A stretch of 64,000 nt of DNA, from NCBI GenBank assembly GCA_020850535.1, contig JADZEM010000068.1, positions 1 to 64,000 of the forward strand. Reading direction: 5' to 3'. A program made the translations under genes and the position numbers. Below are positions 11,201 to 26,211 of the stretch, in pieces. The notes below the pieces were generated by a model. That model made no database searches and was not told where the DNA came from. It worked only from the letters and a program-made list of their open reading frames with translations. Each line of letters opens with the position of its first letter. The first letter of the stretch is position 1. The stretch comes from Chloroflexota bacterium. GTDB taxonomy: Bacteria > Chloroflexota > UBA6077 > JACCZL01.

Positions 11201-11725
11201 TCACTCGTGCTCGCCCGGCGTTGCCGGGCCCCGATCGGAGTACGCCGCGACGATGCGGCGGTGGACCTCCTCGATCGGCAGTCCCGCGTCGGACCAGTCG
11301 GCAGCGTCGAGCGCTTCGTCCTGACACGTCTCGCAGAAGGCGGCATGCGGCTCGATCTCACCCGCTGGCGTGATGAAGCAGTCCTTCAGGTTCGTGTGGG
11401 CGCCCGCCTGGAAGACGCCACAGCCGCAGTAGCAGGGGAGTGCCGCCATGACGTCGAGGCGGGAGTGGGCGGCGGTGTAGGCCGCCCGGCCCCGCGGCAT
11501 CGTGTCGACCCAGGCCGGGAAGTTGACCCCTGGCCCGGTCGATCCCCCGCCGGTCGCGCCGGCGCTCGTGGGGGCAACCGAGGCGGCAACCGACGCCGCG
11601 GGCGGTCCGGCCGCGATGGCGGTGCCCGGCAAGCGACTGCAGCCGGCGCCTACGAGCCCCAGGACACTGAATCCACCGAGCAGCGCGATCGCTCGTCGTC
11701 GGGAGTAGCGAGTCGCGGTCATCAT
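11201..11725 (-). CDS. PCYCGC-motif lipoprotein
   Basis: The 174-residue protein has a twin-arginine-like signal (SRRRAIALLGG) ending in a slightly unusual lipobox GAGC near residue 29, then a low-complexity linker and the family core. The core has ALPCYCGCG, a Cys in LKDCFI and a CETC motif. These Cys-rich lipoproteins of Gram-positive-type bacteria are thought to bind metal or take part in thiol chemistry at the outer membrane face; the exact role is unknown. It lies 22 nt behind the probable selenoprotein gene and shares its CTCAG-box promoter. Confidence 0.85.
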   Translation of the reverse strand: MMTATRYSRRRAIALLGGFSVLGLVGAGCSRLPGTAIAAGPPAASVAASVAPTSAGATGGGSTGPGVNFPAWVDTMPRGRAAYTAAHSRLDVMAALPCYCGCGVFQAGAHTNLKDCFITPAGEIEPHAAFCETCQDEALDAADWSDAGLPIEEVHRRIVAAYSDRGPATPGEHE

Positions 11726-11747: not shown

Positions 11748-12227
11748 TCAGCCCGAGGCGCCCACCAGTGTCAAGACGACGCTTGGGGTTTCGGGGCTGT
11801 CGGTCGTCAGCGTGATCTCGAAGCGGTGCGGCCCGCCCATACCCGCGTGCATGATGTATGGGTAGCGGACGACGAGGGTCTCGCCGGGCTTGATGGCCGT
11901 CGAACTGACGGCCGGCGTGGCCGGTCAACAGCCCTCCAGCATCTTGACTTGCGGCCGTCCCGTCAGCCGGACCTCGCTCCCGCCGGTGTTGGCAAGCTCA
12001 AAGCGAGCTTCCTTCATCACGTCGAACGGGACGCGACCGAGGTCGATCGTTGGCTGGCTGGCGACCAGCCGGCCCGGGGCGTCAGCATCCACCGCCACGG
12101 CCGGGGTTGCCGGTCGAAGCCAGATGACCAGCCCGGCGGCGACGCCGGCCAGCGCGAGCAAGCCGGCGACAAGCAAGGGGAGCCTGAGTCGGCGGGCGGT
12201 CCGCGTTCGGCTGCGTCGTCGTGACAT
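11748..12227 (-). CDS. Probable selenoprotein: membrane-anchored DUF1573-like protein (Cys-Sec)
   Basis: A conventional frame stops after 100 residues at LEGC-TGA, but reading continues in frame for 58 more residues that complete an Ig-like DUF1573-type fold (IKPGETLVVRYPYI, HRFEITLTTDSPETPSVVLT) and end at a TGA at 11748-11750. The TGA at 11925-11927 sits where DUF1573 proteins have their Cys motif, so codon 101 is probably selenocysteine next to Cys100. A hairpin with bacterial SECIS properties follows. Residues 16-37 form one membrane anchor. ATG at 12227 has AGAGAGG nine nt upstream. A four-repeat CTCAG box lies upstream. It probably does extracytoplasmic thiol/selenol redox or metal binding. 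Confidence 0.75.
11895..11927 (-). promoter_or_regulatory. Candidate bacterial SECIS element with Sec UGA
   Basis: Starting 11 nt after the TGA, GGCCGTC-AGTTC-GACGGCC forms a 7-bp perfect stem with a 5-nt loop. The loop begins 19 nt after the TGA and has G as its second base. Bacterial SECIS rules ask for a small stem-loop with its apex about 16-37 nt downstream and a G in the first two loop bases. Confidence 0.65.
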
Positions 12228-12286
12228 CGAAAATGACCTCTCTCCGCTGGGGGGCCGCGAAGCGCGAGCATCGTTCGCTCACGATG

Positions 12287-15790: not shown

Positions 15791-17005
15791 ATGCAGGGAA
15801 CGACGAGTGGTGCGGTGAGCGGGCGCGCTAAGCGATCGCGGCCACGCCGCCAGCAGCTCGGCACGACCGTCGTCTGGCTGGCGGTGCTCGTCCTGGTGCT
15901 TGGGGGCCTGCTGGGCGTCGCGGCGTACCTCGTGCTCGGCCTGCCGGCACCGGGCAGCCCTGGTGCCAGAGCGCCTTCGAGCGCGCAGGGTGGCGCGGCC
16001 TCCCCGGGTGCCGGGATGGTGCCGGCTCCGGAGGGGCCACCGGCGCCACGCCCGGGTGCGCTGGCGCCGGACATCGCCGGGCTGGCACTGGACGGGTCGC
16101 GCGTCGCGCTCGGCGACCTGCGCGGGAAGACGGTCATGGTGAACTTCTGGGCGAGCTGGTGCCCGCCCTGCGAGCGCGAGATGGCCGATCTCCAGCAGCT
16201 GTACGCCGAGGAGAGCAGCGCGGGCTTCGTCGTCCTGGGCGTCAACGAAGGCGAAGCACCGGAGCGTGCGCAGACCTTCCTGACACGGAAGGGGATTACC
16301 TTCCCAAACCTGGTTGATCCCGACATGAGCATCACCAGGCGCTACGAGGTGTTCGGACTCCCGAACTCCTTCTTCGTCGATCCCGCCGGCGTCGTTCGCG
16401 CCCGGATCGTTGGCCCGATCAGTCTGGAGCAGATGCGTAGCCACCTCCAGCAGGTGCGCCAGGGCTCGACCGTCCAGCAGGCGAGCATCCCATCGTTGTT
16501 CGCCGCGACGAGCGCCCTGCACGATCGGCCGGTCGCCGAGGTGGCGGGCGGGCCGATCACCCTCGGCGAGGTCAACCGGCGGATCGACCTGGAGCTGAGC
16601 CTGACGGCGATTAAGGGGGGCCTCGTCACCGACCTGACCCGCCCGGAGCGCAGCGAGGAGCTCCAGCAGCTCCAACGGATCATGACCGAGCGGGTGGTCG
16701 ACGAGCGTGTCGTCGCACGGCGCGCCGGCGCGGCCGGCATCGCCGTCACGGATGCCGAGGTCGACGCCGACCTCGCGCGGACGGCCGGCGAGGCCGGCCT
16801 GACGCCCCCGGCCCTCGTACAGGCCCTCTCAGAGCGTGGCTCGGACATTGCCGTGCTCCGGGACAGTCACCGCGCCGCCAGCCTGATCGGAAGGTTCGTG
16901 GCCGAGCGCGTGCTGACCGGCCAGAATGCTGAGGGGCTCGACGACTACGAGCCGTGGCTCGCAGCGGCGCGCGCGGCTGACGGCGTCCGGATCCTGCTCC
17001 CGTGA
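15791..17005 (+). CDS. TlpA-like thioredoxin fused to a SurA N-terminal-like domain
   Basis: The 404-residue protein has a membrane anchor (22-50) and a Pro/Ala-rich linker. A TlpA/ResA-type thioredoxin fold follows (about 95-235) with active site WASWCPPCE and FGLPNSFFVDPAG. From about 250 a helical region (VAEVAGGPITLGEVNRRIDL, VVDERVVARRAGAAGI) resembles the N-terminal chaperone part of SurA/PrsA. The first part would reduce or oxidise extracytoplasmic disulfides; the second may hold the unfolded substrate. GGAGGTGAG precedes the ATG. It lies 82 bp behind the L,D-transpeptidase gene and before the rhodanese gene. Confidence 0.85.
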   Translation: MQGTTSGAVSGRAKRSRPRRQQLGTTVVWLAVLVLVLGGLLGVAAYLVLGLPAPGSPGARAPSSAQGGAASPGAGMVPAPEGPPAPRPGALAPDIAGLALDGSRVALGDLRGKTVMVNFWASWCPPCEREMADLQQLYAEESSAGFVVLGVNEGEAPERAQTFLTRKGITFPNLVDPDMSITRRYEVFGLPNSFFVDPAGVVRARIVGPISLEQMRSHLQQVRQGSTVQQASIPSLFAATSALHDRPVAEVAGGPITLGEVNRRIDLELSLTAIKGGLVTDLTRPERSEELQQLQRIMTERVVDERVVARRAGAAGIAVTDAEVDADLARTAGEAGLTPPALVQALSERGSDIAVLRDSHRAASLIGRFVAERVLTGQNAEGLDDYEPWLAAARAADGVRILLP

Positions 17006-20802: not shown

Positions 20803-21679
20803 AGCCTGTTATGGACTTACGTCAGGCCGAAGTAGGCAGTAGCGCGGGCGAGTTCGAGGCAGGCGAAGGCGACGAGATGCAGACCGGCCAGGACGGAGAG
20901 GCGGCGCTCGTAGTCTCGGACGAGGCGTCGGAAGCGGGACTTCCAGGCGAAGGATCGCTCCACGACCCAGCGCCTGGGAAGGAGGACGAAGCCACGCTTG
21001 GCCTCGGGCAGCTTGACGACCTCGAGGCGGATGCCGTGGGCCAGGGCCGCCTCGGCGGGGTCAGCGCCCGTGTAGCCCTGGTCGACGAACGCCACCTCCA
21101 CCGTCCCGGCGGTCACAGCTTGCACTTGCCGACTCAACTCGGCCACCTGGGCGCGATCCTGGTCGTTGGCCGGCGTGACGTGCAGGGCCAGCAGGTGGCC
21201 GAGGGTATCGACCGCCACATGCACCTTGCTCCCCTTCCGCCGCTTGGCCCCGTCGTAGCTGGCATGCGCCCCACTCTCGGGCGTGCTCTGGAGGGTCTGG
21301 CTGTCGTAGATCACCGCCGTCGGCTCCGGCGCACGCCCCTCCGCCAACCGGAGCAGCGCCCGCAGGTCATGGATGATCGCTTCGAAGCTGCCAGCCGCCA
21401 GCCAGCGTTGCGTCTGCTGGTACACCACCGGCCACGGCGGCAGGTCGTGCGGCATCCAGCGCCACTGCCCACCGGTCTTCACGATGTAGCGCAGTCCGTT
21501 GAACACCTCCCGCAGCGGGTACGTTCGCTGCGGCGCATCCTCCGTCATCAAGGTCAGGTACGGGGCGACAAACGCCCATTCGTCGTCGCTCACATCACTC
21601 GGGTACGACTTCCGTGCGGGAGTGACATCGCTCATGCCCCCACTTTACGGAAGCCGTGGCCCAAAGTTCATAACAGGCT
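20803..21679 (-). mobile_element. IS5-family insertion sequence, 877 bp
   Basis: The imperfect terminal repeats AGCCTGTTATGgACTT and AGCCTGTTATGaACTT bound the element. It is flanked by direct copies of CTAG (20799-20802 and 21680-21683), which fits the YTAR target of the IS5 group. It carries one intact transposase gene on the minus strand and interrupts the leader of a CTCAG-box operon. Confidence 0.85.
20817..21635 (-). CDS. IS5-family transposase
   Basis: The 272-residue protein has an N-terminal DUF4096-like DNA-binding part ([32 protein letters not shown]) and a DDE domain with YDSQT, VDQGYTG and RRWVVERSF marking the three acidic residues. It appears complete and probably active or recently active, since the terminal repeats and target duplication are intact. 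Confidence 0.9.
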
Positions 21680-21723
21680 CTAGGACGGCCCCGCGACGAG
21701 GCACACTCCCGAGAGGAGAAGAG

Positions 21724-22641
21724 ATGCGTCGAACCGCTGTCGCCGTCGCCGCGCTGCTCCTGGCGGCCGGCACCACACCCGCGCTCGCGGGCGGTGGCCT
21801 GCCAAAGGTCGCCAGCATCGAGGTCGGTCCCCACCGGGCCGCCGTCCACAACGACTCGCCGTCGCTGCTGACCGGCAGCAACACCCTGACCGTCGAGATC
21901 GGCGACCTCACGGCCGATCACCGGGTGAGCCTCATGCTCATCGGTCCGCGCGGCGAGCAGATCGCCGTCCCGCTCGGCCCGGTCATCGTCCTGGACGGGC
22001 CGGGCGGCGGCCACGGCGGTGGCGAAGCGAGCGCCCCGAATGGTGAGGACAACCATGCGTCTGTTCCTGCCGACGACCACGCCGCCGCGCCGGCCGCGTC
22101 CTCGGCGAAGGCCGACACTCATGGCACGGTAGCCAGGGACGCCCACGGCGCCGCGGAGAGCCACGGGACGAGCGTGACGGCACCGGCCGCACGGGACAGC
22201 CAAGGCGCCCCGGTGCAGGCGAAGCTCGCCACCGCCGTCGACAGCCACGCGGCGAGCCCGGCTGCCGCCGATCCGCACGGGGCCGGCACCCAGGACGGCC
22301 ACGCCACTACCGCGTCCTCGCCGAGTCCGGCCACCGGACATGACGAGGCCGGGCCGGCGGCGGCGGATGCCGACCACGGCCATGAGACTCAGGAGTACAT
22401 GGCGCGTGGCGCGGTCTCGCTCCCCTCGACCGGCACCTGGACCGCGCGCCTCGTCATCCGTGACGCGCACGGCGAGGAGATGGTCGGTGAGGCGCCGGTC
22501 CAGGTCGAGCAGGGCGGCCCGAATCGCCTGTATCTCGGCGTCAGCGGCAGCCTGATCTTCGGCTCAATGCTCTTCGGCATGATCCAGCGGCGTCGGGAGC
22601 CGACCCGCTCGCGCGACCCACGCTCGCGCACCACGCGCTAA
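21724..22641 (+). CDS. Exported His/Ala-rich protein with C-terminal anchor
   Basis: The 305-residue protein has a signal peptide (1-22), a beta-rich domain (25-95), and a long His/Asp/Ala/Ser-rich middle (100-235) that includes many H-x-A/D clusters and could bind metal. A second beta segment (LPSTGTWTARLVIRDAHGEE) and one membrane helix near 275-290 with a basic tail follow. GAGGAGAAGAG precedes the ATG. It is the first gene after the IS and lies 11 bp from the iron-sulfur membrane protein gene. I know no named family; a periplasmic copper or zinc sponge is possible. Confidence 0.65.
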   Translation: MRRTAVAVAALLLAAGTTPALAGGGLPKVASIEVGPHRAAVHNDSPSLLTGSNTLTVEIGDLTADHRVSLMLIGPRGEQIAVPLGPVIVLDGPGGGHGGGEASAPNGEDNHASVPADDHAAAPAASSAKADTHGTVARDAHGAAESHGTSVTAPAARDSQGAPVQAKLATAVDSHAASPAAADPHGAGTQDGHATTASSPSPATGHDEAGPAAADADHGHETQEYMARGAVSLPSTGTWTARLVIRDAHGEEMVGEAPVQVEQGGPNRLYLGVSGSLIFGSMLFGMIQRRREPTRSRDPRSRTTR

Positions 22642-22652
22642 GGAGCGGATCG

Positions 22653-24065
22653 ATGGCTCTCCGACAGCCGGCGCGCCCCGAGCGCGCCCCCACCCCCTTG
22701 ACCATCCTGACGGCCGCCGCGCCAGCACCCCACTCGCGCGGCCTGCTCGACAACCCGCTCGTCCTGGGGTTCCTCCAGAGCCGCTACTACCCGGCCGTCT
22801 TCACCTACCCGGTCCTGGTCGTCTTCGGCTACATCATCTACTCGCTGCTCTGGGGGCCGGCCGCCGCCTCGGCGAACCTCGGCACCAGCCTGACCTGGGT
22901 GCTCTGGTGGCCGCTGATCCCGCTGGCGATGTTCGCGCTCGGGCGCTTCTGGTGCGGGATCTGCCCCTTCGGCACGACCATCGACCTGGTCCAGAAGGTC
23001 GCCGGCCTCGGCCGCCCGGTGCCTGCATTCCTGAAGAAGTACGGCATCTGGGTGATCGACGCCGTCTTCCTGCTGATCACCTGGGCCGACCACGTCTTCG
23101 GTATCGTCGAGTCGCCGCGTGGCTCCGGCTACCTGCTCGGGCTGCTGGTGACGGCCAGCGTCGTGACGGCCGTCTTCTTCGAGCGACGGACCTGGTGCCG
23201 CTACCTCTGCTTCCTCGGCGGCCTCTCGGGCAACTACGCGCGGACCTCGGGCATCCAGCTCCAGGCGACCCCGGACATCTGCGCCACCTGCAAGGACCAG
23301 TACTGCTACAAGGGAAGAGACGGCATCCCCGGCTGCCCCGTCTTCGAAGTGCCGCGCACCATGAACAACATGGCGAACTGCAACTTCTGCGCGGCCTGCA
23401 TCAAGTCGTGCGAGAAGGGCTCGCTGCGGCTCTTCCTCAGGAAGCCCACCAGCGAGCTCTGGTTCCTGGCTCGCCCGAAGTTCGCCGAGGCGTTCCTGGC
23501 GGTCGTCATCGTCGGGATCGTGCTGGTCCAGAACATCACGATGCTCTCGTTCTGGGAGCCGCTGATGACGACGCTCCAGGGCGTCCTGCTTGGCAGCCGG
23601 GTGGCGGCCTTCACGTCGGTCTTCCTGGTCGCGATGGCCGTCCCGTTCGTGCTGATGCTGGCGGCGGCAAAGCTGACCGGCGCCCAGACCGGCGAGGACA
23701 TCGCGCGGACGTTCGCCCGCTTCGGGTACGCGGTGATCCCGCTGGACCTGGCCGGGCACATGGCCCACAACTTCTTCCACCTGTTCGCCGAGGGCAAGGC
23801 GATCCTCTTCAACACGGCCGCCCTCGCCGGCACGTACGTGACGGGGGACGCCGCCCTGGTCTCGACCCCGACCATCCAGGCGATGCAGTTCGCCGTGCTC
23901 GCGCTCGGCATCGGCGGCTCGATCTTCACCGCCTACAAGATCGCCCAGCGCAGTCCTGGCCAGGCCACGCCCCTCCGTGCCTTCGTGCCCCAGCTCGTGG
24001 TGCTGGTCATCTTCGGACTGGTGAACGTCTATCTCTTCACCCTCCCGATGGCCCACCGCGTGTAG
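22653..24065 (+). CDS. NapH/CcoG-like polytopic 4Fe-4S protein
   Basis: The 470-residue protein has about eight or nine membrane helices, with RFWCGICPFGTTIDLVQKV and RRTWCRYLCFLGGLSG in the first half and two Cys-rich clusters after. These are C-x2-C-x3-YCYKG...GCPVF and CNFCAACIKSCEKGSL, the second a classic ferredoxin C-x2-C-x2-C-x3-C. NosR, NapH and CcoG proteins pass electrons across the membrane for nitrous oxide or nitrate reduction or reduce copper for oxidase assembly. Here the copper setting fits the latter. It is co-transcribed with the genes on either side. Confidence 0.8.
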   Translation: MALRQPARPERAPTPLTILTAAAPAPHSRGLLDNPLVLGFLQSRYYPAVFTYPVLVVFGYIIYSLLWGPAAASANLGTSLTWVLWWPLIPLAMFALGRFWCGICPFGTTIDLVQKVAGLGRPVPAFLKKYGIWVIDAVFLLITWADHVFGIVESPRGSGYLLGLLVTASVVTAVFFERRTWCRYLCFLGGLSGNYARTSGIQLQATPDICATCKDQYCYKGRDGIPGCPVFEVPRTMNNMANCNFCAACIKSCEKGSLRLFLRKPTSELWFLARPKFAEAFLAVVIVGIVLVQNITMLSFWEPLMTTLQGVLLGSRVAAFTSVFLVAMAVPFVLMLAAAKLTGAQTGEDIARTFARFGYAVIPLDLAGHMAHNFFHLFAEGKAILFNTAALAGTYVTGDAALVSTPTIQAMQFAVLALGIGGSIFTAYKIAQRSPGQATPLRAFVPQLVVLVIFGLVNVYLFTLPMAHRV

Positions 24066-25443: not shown

Positions 25444-26211
25444 CTACAGGAACCAGTAGACGAGGGTGTCGTTCGCTCCGGCCAGCAGGAGCACCGCCGC
25501 CGCGAGCGGCCGCAGCCACGCATCCAGGCGCCGCGCACCCGCCAGATAGCTTCGGGTCGCGCCGAGACCGGCGCTCAGCACCGCCGCCAGGCCGAGGAGC
25601 GGCAGGGTCGTGCCGAGCGCGAAGGCGCCCGGATAGACGATCCCGACCGGCGAGGCCAGCGCCAGCGGGATCGTCAGCCCGAAGAACAGCAGGAACAGCG
25701 TCGGGCAGAAGGCGAACGCGAAGGCGACGCCGAGCACGAATGCGCCGCTCGTGCCCGGCCCGGCCCGCGCTTCGAGCCACTCCGAGAGTCCCTGGCCAAC
25801 CGTGAAGCGCAGTGGCGGCCAGCCGAGCAGGTGCAGCCCGAGCAGGATCATCAGCGGCCCAAGCGCCTTGCGCGCCGCCACGACAACCGGGATCGAGCTT
25901 TGCGCGGCTTCCCGCCCGAGCAGGATGACCGCCACGCCGACGACGGTGTAGACCAGCACCTTGCCGAGCAGGTACGCCAGCGCCCCGCCCGCGACAGATC
26001 GCCGCTCGCCGGCCCCGCGGACCACATACGCCAGCGCGCTCGCGTTCGTGGTGAGCTGGCAGGGGCTGGTCGCCCCGAGCAGCCCGAACAGGAGCGCGCT
26101 CACCAGCGGGATGCCGATGCCGTCCCCGAGCGAGCGGACCGGGTCGACCACCGCGGCGTTGAGCGCACTCAGGACGGCGTACCAGGACATGACCAGCCCG
26201 CGCAGGTCCAC
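25444..26211 (-). CDS. ccdA: CcdA/DsbD-like transmembrane thiol transporter (copy 1)
   Basis: The 255-residue protein has six or more membrane helices. One Cys lies in GATSPCQLTTNAS of the first helix pair and a second in AFAFCPTLFLLFFGL of the other, the arrangement of CcdA/DsbD proteins that carry reducing power outward to TlpA-type thioredoxins. It follows the methyltransferase gene by four bases. A second, more canonical CcdA is encoded at 45966-46679, so this one may serve a separate partner. Confidence 0.75.
   Translation of the reverse strand: MDLRGLVMSWYAVLSALNAAVVDPVRSLGDGIGIPLVSALLFGLLGATSPCQLTTNASALAYVVRGAGERRSVAGGALAYLLGKVLVYTVVGVAVILLGREAAQSSIPVVVAARKALGPLMILLGLHLLGWPPLRFTVGQGLSEWLEARAGPGTSGAFVLGVAFAFAFCPTLFLLFFGLTIPLALASPVGIVYPGAFALGTTLPLLGLAAVLSAGLGATRSYLAGARRLDAWLRPLAAAVLLLAGANDTLVYWFL

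Follow-up and report, generated by a model that had tools for sequence, protein, structure and literature searches.

A probable Gly-Cys-Sec subfamily of DUF1573 selenoproteins in Chloroflexota

Proteins with a DUF1573 domain are already on the lists of selenoproteins, with the motif U-G-C (PMC9312934, PMC13188914), and differing selenocysteine (Sec) motifs are counted as separate subfamilies (PMC13188914). The family concerned, OS_HP2 (NF041425; Olavius algarvensis symbiont), has a curated cut-off of 100 bits and the motif TG-U-GCT, as read directly from genome members. The gene described here had been put forward in a sequence-only reading as that of a new selenoprotein. Part of this claim stood: DUF1573 selenoproteins were known, with U-G-C and under NF041425 (OS_HP2), and what appears to be new is a subfamily with the motif GC-U.

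The window, i.e. the whole stretch of 64,000 nucleotides analysed, belongs to a Chloroflexota genome of 7.65 Mb in 227 contigs that is 96% complete. The DUF1573 gene spans 11748..12227 on the minus strand (the sequence-only reading had given no strand), from an ATG at 12227 to a terminal TGA stop at 11750-11748, with a Shine-Dalgarno-like GGAGAGAGG (12237..12245, minus strand) found in the upstream sequence 9 nt before the ATG. Under translation table 11, the open reading frame (12227..11925) ends after 100 aa with the C-terminus ...QVKMLEGC. Read as Sec, the single internal TGA at codon 101 (LEGC-U-PA) is followed by 58 further codons and gives a product of 159 aa, an assignment based on the translation, Pfam and homologues. 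The Cys100-Sec101 pair is encoded by TGT TGA at 11925..11930 (minus strand), the Sec codon being 11927-11925. The read-through product scored 28.0 bits with Pfam DUF1573 (PF07610) and thus reached the gathering cut-off of 26.1 bits, compared with 14.5 bits for the truncated product, so the part downstream of the TGA completes the domain; PF07610 matched 44 of the 51 family members at E <= 0.001. The GC3 content was 0.80 upstream and 0.90 downstream of the TGA. Accordingly, the in-frame TGA after LEGC, the 58 codons completing the domain, the normal codon bias after the TGA and the truncation by standard annotation were all borne out. The Cys motif proposed for this place was found in part: a Cys is present one residue before Sec, and the usual CGC motif lacks its first Cys.

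Homologues were first collected from 201 related genomes, which yielded 20 sequences including a second copy in the host genome. Each had exactly one internal TGA, and in their alignment the TGA column was identical in 20/20, preceded directly by [EDN][GS]C and followed by P. A wider profile scan of 84,980 species gave 121 relatives, of which 80 were kept and 75 were readable at the site, with TGA in 65 and TGC or TGT (Cys) in 10; the sets of 20 and 75 overlap and are not additive. Homologues with Cys in place of the TGA, which the sequence-only reading had proposed searching for, thus exist, and the column holds TGA or Cys rather than the end of a protein. A scan of contigs with the single window protein as the query found no relative, as these were recovered only with an alignment as the query, and a search of plasmid records revealed none encoding a relative. 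Most homologues came from Chloroflexota; further carriers were a few MAG contigs labelled Methylomirabilota, Rokubacteria, Actinomycetota, Gemmatimonadota and Desulfobacterales, any of which may be individually mis-binned. On a tree of 74 rows, the Cys forms were dispersed among the Sec forms, which is explained most simply by seven Sec/Cys changes, with at least three forced by well-supported branches. The second copy in the host genome (G000 contig C31, 12335-12817; L036, neighbourhood in L134 8878-9513) is 67% identical to the window protein, carries the same TGA and hairpin, and is followed by a PCYCGC gene. In another genome, a near-identical second copy (L041/L043, G128:C1 4125128-4125516) is apparently split by a frameshift and could be a pseudogene or reflect misassembly close to the record end.

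The predicted bacterial SECIS (bSECIS) element is the hairpin GGCCGTC-AGTTC-GACGGCC at 11895..11913 on the minus strand, assigned from covariation and from stem retention in Sec versus Cys forms. It begins 11 nt past the TGA, has a 7-bp stem and a 5-nt loop, AGTTC, that starts 18 nt past the TGA, and has a folding energy of -12.8 kcal/mol; the loop of the family reads RGTNC. Published rules specify an apical loop of 3-9 nt, a stem of 4-16 bp, a G in the first two loop positions, a distance of 16-37 nt from the UGA and an MFE <= -7.5 kcal/mol (PMC13188914), and the window hairpin agrees with all of them. Across 19 distinct sequences, six of the seven stem pairs had changed on both sides yet remained paired. 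The covariation score was 0.583, compared with 0.262 after shuffling; it was reached by 0/500 shuffles and fell when the partner was slid. RNAalifold recovered 6 of 7 stem pairs unaided. The six inner pairs were intact in 60/65 TGA forms versus 2/10 Cys forms (Fisher p = 3e-6, for sequences that share descent and are not independent events), with a retention of about 13% expected under random synonymous codons. The two Cys forms that retained the stem, L056 and L059, share a supported clade with the Sec form L075 and look like a recent loss of Sec. The mixed Sec/Cys tree and the decaying hairpins thus offer natural cases of selenocysteine loss. The fold of the single sequence was only modestly better than that of shuffles (z = -1.98), and since such folding is weak evidence in GC-rich DNA, the SECIS argument rests on covariation. 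The hairpin had been described in the sequence-only reading with the same stem, spacing and loop, and its proposed action as a SECIS element is favoured by the covariation of 6/7 pairs.

These data bear on whether the TGA is an ordinary stop, which would leave either a 100-aa protein or a pseudogene with a nonsense mutation. The table-11 frame does terminate at the TGA and the single-sequence z-score is small, but 65/75 readable homologues share the TGA and Cys is the sole alternative, the sequence past this codon is conserved, the SECIS covaries, and half of the DUF1573 domain would be lost, all of which makes an ordinary stop extremely improbable.

The host genome also encodes the machinery for Sec. 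A tRNA-Sec scored 65.2 bits and was given the anticodon tca by ARAGORN, SelA (559.6 bits) and SelB (336.7 bits) are encoded by adjacent genes on contig C199, and SelD scored 388.5 bits. All four genes that the sequence-only reading had named for a check (selA, selB, selC and selD) were therefore found, and refutation by absent machinery failed. The SelD gene (G000 contig C53, 26913-27836; L129) has its own in-frame TGA, within HGAG-U-ACK, which makes it very probable that the organism produces one or more further selenoproteins. Among 21 tested genomes with a Sec form, SelB was above the cut-off in 17 and apparently split over contig ends in an 18th (G022), and no clear copy was found in G017, G213 and G214, probably due to incomplete assemblies. 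In genomes with a Cys form, SelB was above the cut-off in 6/10, as expected if Cys sometimes replaced Sec after loss of the machinery.

Insertion of another residue, such as Cys through a tRNA with a UCA anticodon or Trp through a variant code, would fit the tolerance of Cys at the site in homologues. Among the candidate tRNAs scanned, however, the sole one with a UCA anticodon is tRNA-Sec and the tRNA-Cys has the anticodon gca; in addition, SelA and SelB are present and the hairpin, which decays in Cys forms, obeys the bSECIS rules, so this reading is highly improbable. A variant genetic code was ruled out, as TGA also terminates the selenoprotein frame. With the machinery present, TGA or Cys in 75/75 readable homologues and a covarying hairpin, decoding of UGA codon 101 as Sec through the bSECIS hairpin, as the sequence-only reading had held, is very likely. 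SelB with Sec-tRNA(Sec) would recognise the hairpin 18 nt downstream, with its loop A-G-U-U-C, and ribosomes would pass the UGA and insert Sec beside Cys100.

The AlphaFold2 model of the read-through product had a mean pLDDT of 92.3, including the part past the TGA, and consists of a helix spanning residues 15-36 followed by a beta-sandwich. The helix, which coincides with hydrophobic sequence, is the predicted N-terminal transmembrane helix (12120..12185, minus strand). Matches in the PDB were ASH/PapD-like domains of HYDIN, OCRL and CEP192, and a sequence search of solved structures returned mainly ciliary HYDIN-type repeats. The product would thus be anchored by one N-terminal helix and display a PapD/ASH-like Ig domain (DUF1573) outside the membrane; this presumed extracytoplasmic location rests on the helix and the partner proteins. 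Residues G64, N80, G99, C100, U/C101, P102, P114, M126, H127, G129, M130, G132, P133 and H134 were invariant in 51 sequences, and the C-(U/C) pair was likewise invariant in the alignments and the homologue codons. In the model, strand 93-98 leads into the Cys-Sec pair, and strand 117-124 into the MHxGM loop. This loop, M126-H127-x-G-M130-x-G-P-H134 (11826..11852, minus strand), contributes candidate metal ligands from its invariant columns. Together, Cys100-Sec101 and Met126, His127, Met130 and His134 probably form a soft-metal or redox site, although the conserved Cys/Sec and Met/His residues could also take part in redox chemistry without a metal.

The next gene (11201..11725, minus strand) encodes a PCYCGC protein (PF13798/CYCXC family; Pfam 40.1 bits, NCBIfam NF041379 under cut-off), and its ATG lies 22 nt after the stop of the selenoprotein gene. 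A PCYCGC gene lies downstream of both selenoprotein gene copies in the host genome. Open reading frames were clustered around 76 homologue loci, and the recurrent neighbours were PCYCGC proteins (51/76), COX2-like (CuA-type) cupredoxins (45/76) and an Fe-S membrane protein of the Fer4_5 type (44/76), as well as copper-type P-ATPases (28) and multicopper oxidases (14), the latter two named from their sequences rather than by profile search. The cupredoxins carried the exact CuA motif CxxxCGxxHxxM at 37 loci, and the longer ones additionally had CXXCH. At the 43 loci with >=4 kb on both sides, a PCYCGC gene was found on the same strand within 4 kb in 34 and a cupredoxin in 33. The sole host-genome homologue of the conserved Fer4_5 protein is encoded in the window at 22653..24065 on the plus strand (501.7 bits, 51% identity, Pfam), 11 kb from the selenoprotein gene and on the opposite strand, and a search of the host genome for the CuA-cupredoxin of the conserved cluster gave no close match (best 34 bits). 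The link with copper is therefore weaker here than in other Chloroflexota. Directly upstream of the Fe-S membrane protein gene, the window encodes at 21499-22641 (+) a predicted exported protein without a Pfam family, which has a long low-complexity stretch rich in His, Asp and Ala and a C-terminal hydrophobic segment. A further ORF, at 15791-17005 (+), joins a TlpA/ResA-like thioredoxin domain to a SurA-like region, an unusual fusion.

In the function that we tentatively favour, the window protein would act together with the PCYCGC protein in copper handling or CuA thiol protection. The two would bind or reduce copper, or protect or reduce the thiols of CuA sites, and this would serve electron transfer by a membrane module that combines CuA-type cupredoxins with the Fe-S membrane protein. 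Nearly as likely, though still less than even, is a general thiol/selenol redox protein, a disulfide or peroxide reductase that is fed by the TlpA- and DsbD-type proteins nearby and has no metal role. Such a protein would find possible partners in the TlpA-like thioredoxin (15791-17005), a rhodanese and a DsbD_2 protein (25444-26211), all encoded in the window, and a redox role is presumed for most selenoproteins (PMC13188914). Copper is suggested instead by the invariant Met/His set and by the recurrence of CuA-cupredoxins, copper-ATPases and multicopper oxidases among the neighbours, and the TlpA gene is not conserved beside homologues, its ORF cluster covering 3/76 loci. A Cys-Sec pair is expected from general chemistry to bind Hg(II) strongly, which counts in favour of a protein handling mercury or organomercury. 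The same holds for the CU motif, which is shared by two selenoproteins linked to mercury, SaoL and HgcA (PMC13188914). Inspection of the recurrent neighbour clusters, however, revealed no recognisable mer or sao genes but copper and Fe-S partners, and this role is unlikely. The copper reading can be extended to a widespread Sec-dependent copper-handling protein whose Ig fold carries Cys-Sec and a Met/His loop. It would deliver copper to CuA-type electron-transfer proteins or reduce it for them, and its gene would belong to a conserved PCYCGC-cupredoxin-DUF1573-FeS-cupredoxin/cytochrome cluster found in Chloroflexota and in a few further phyla; this extension is rather doubtful. The conserved neighbourhood would tie Sec to copper/CuA-type electron transfer, which is a testable idea.

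PCuAC- and SCO-type CuA copper chaperones are membrane-bound and have ligands of the Met/His/Cys type. The window protein would resemble them in these two respects and in the CuA genes near its relatives, but it belongs to another fold family and carries a probable Sec. The CYCXC/OS_HP4 (seleno)protein (NF041379, PF13798) represents the superfamily of the PCYCGC partner next door, which in the host genome is in the Cys form and under the NF041379 cut-off.

Within DUF1573, it was considered whether the window protein is a plain member of OS_HP2. The two share the fold family, with PF07610 and a Sec in the Cys-motif loop, hhalign gave a profile-profile probability of 97.7%, and NF041425 matched 29/51 members. 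Against this, NF041425 gave no match with the window protein itself, and the best of ten relatives reached 38.4 bits, under the cut-off. OS_HP2 has TG-U-GCT without MHxGMxGPH, compared with EGC-U-P here, and UGC is the only DUF1573 motif in PMC13188914. Plain membership is therefore very unlikely. MAFFT placed the two Sec residues in the same column, whereas hhalign aligned GC on GC, with the window Sec three residues later, so the distinction rests on the motif and not on column identity. In the class to which the Desulfobacterales genome G216 belongs, OS_HP2 was above the cut-off in 169/192 genomes, in contrast with the mostly Chloroflexota distribution of the window group. Genomes of this class hold several OS_HP2 paralogues each (L136-L165), some of which lack an internal TGA.

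The U-G-C of OS_HP2 has no counterpart in the window protein, with its G-C-U-P and invariant MHxGMxGPH, and since the Sec motif differs, the GC-U group is, by the rule of PMC13188914 itself and as judged from gene sequences, a new subfamily within a selenoprotein domain that was already known. It is absent from the 2026 catalogue; the open-licence literature was searched, and an earlier mention elsewhere is possible. The TGA form occurs in at least 65 species-level genomes, in which standard annotation would truncate the gene, and this selenoprotein subfamily of Chloroflexota, and probably of some other phyla, is likely absent from most gene tables. Compared with canonical DUF1573 (PF07610, [ST]-C-G-C-T), the window protein shares the Ig-like fold and scores above the Pfam cut-off, but has Glu for the first Cys, as well as the MHxGMxGPH loop and a Cys-Sec pair. 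Two groups of bacteria would carry Sec in this same small Ig domain in different motifs, UGC in one and GCU in the other.
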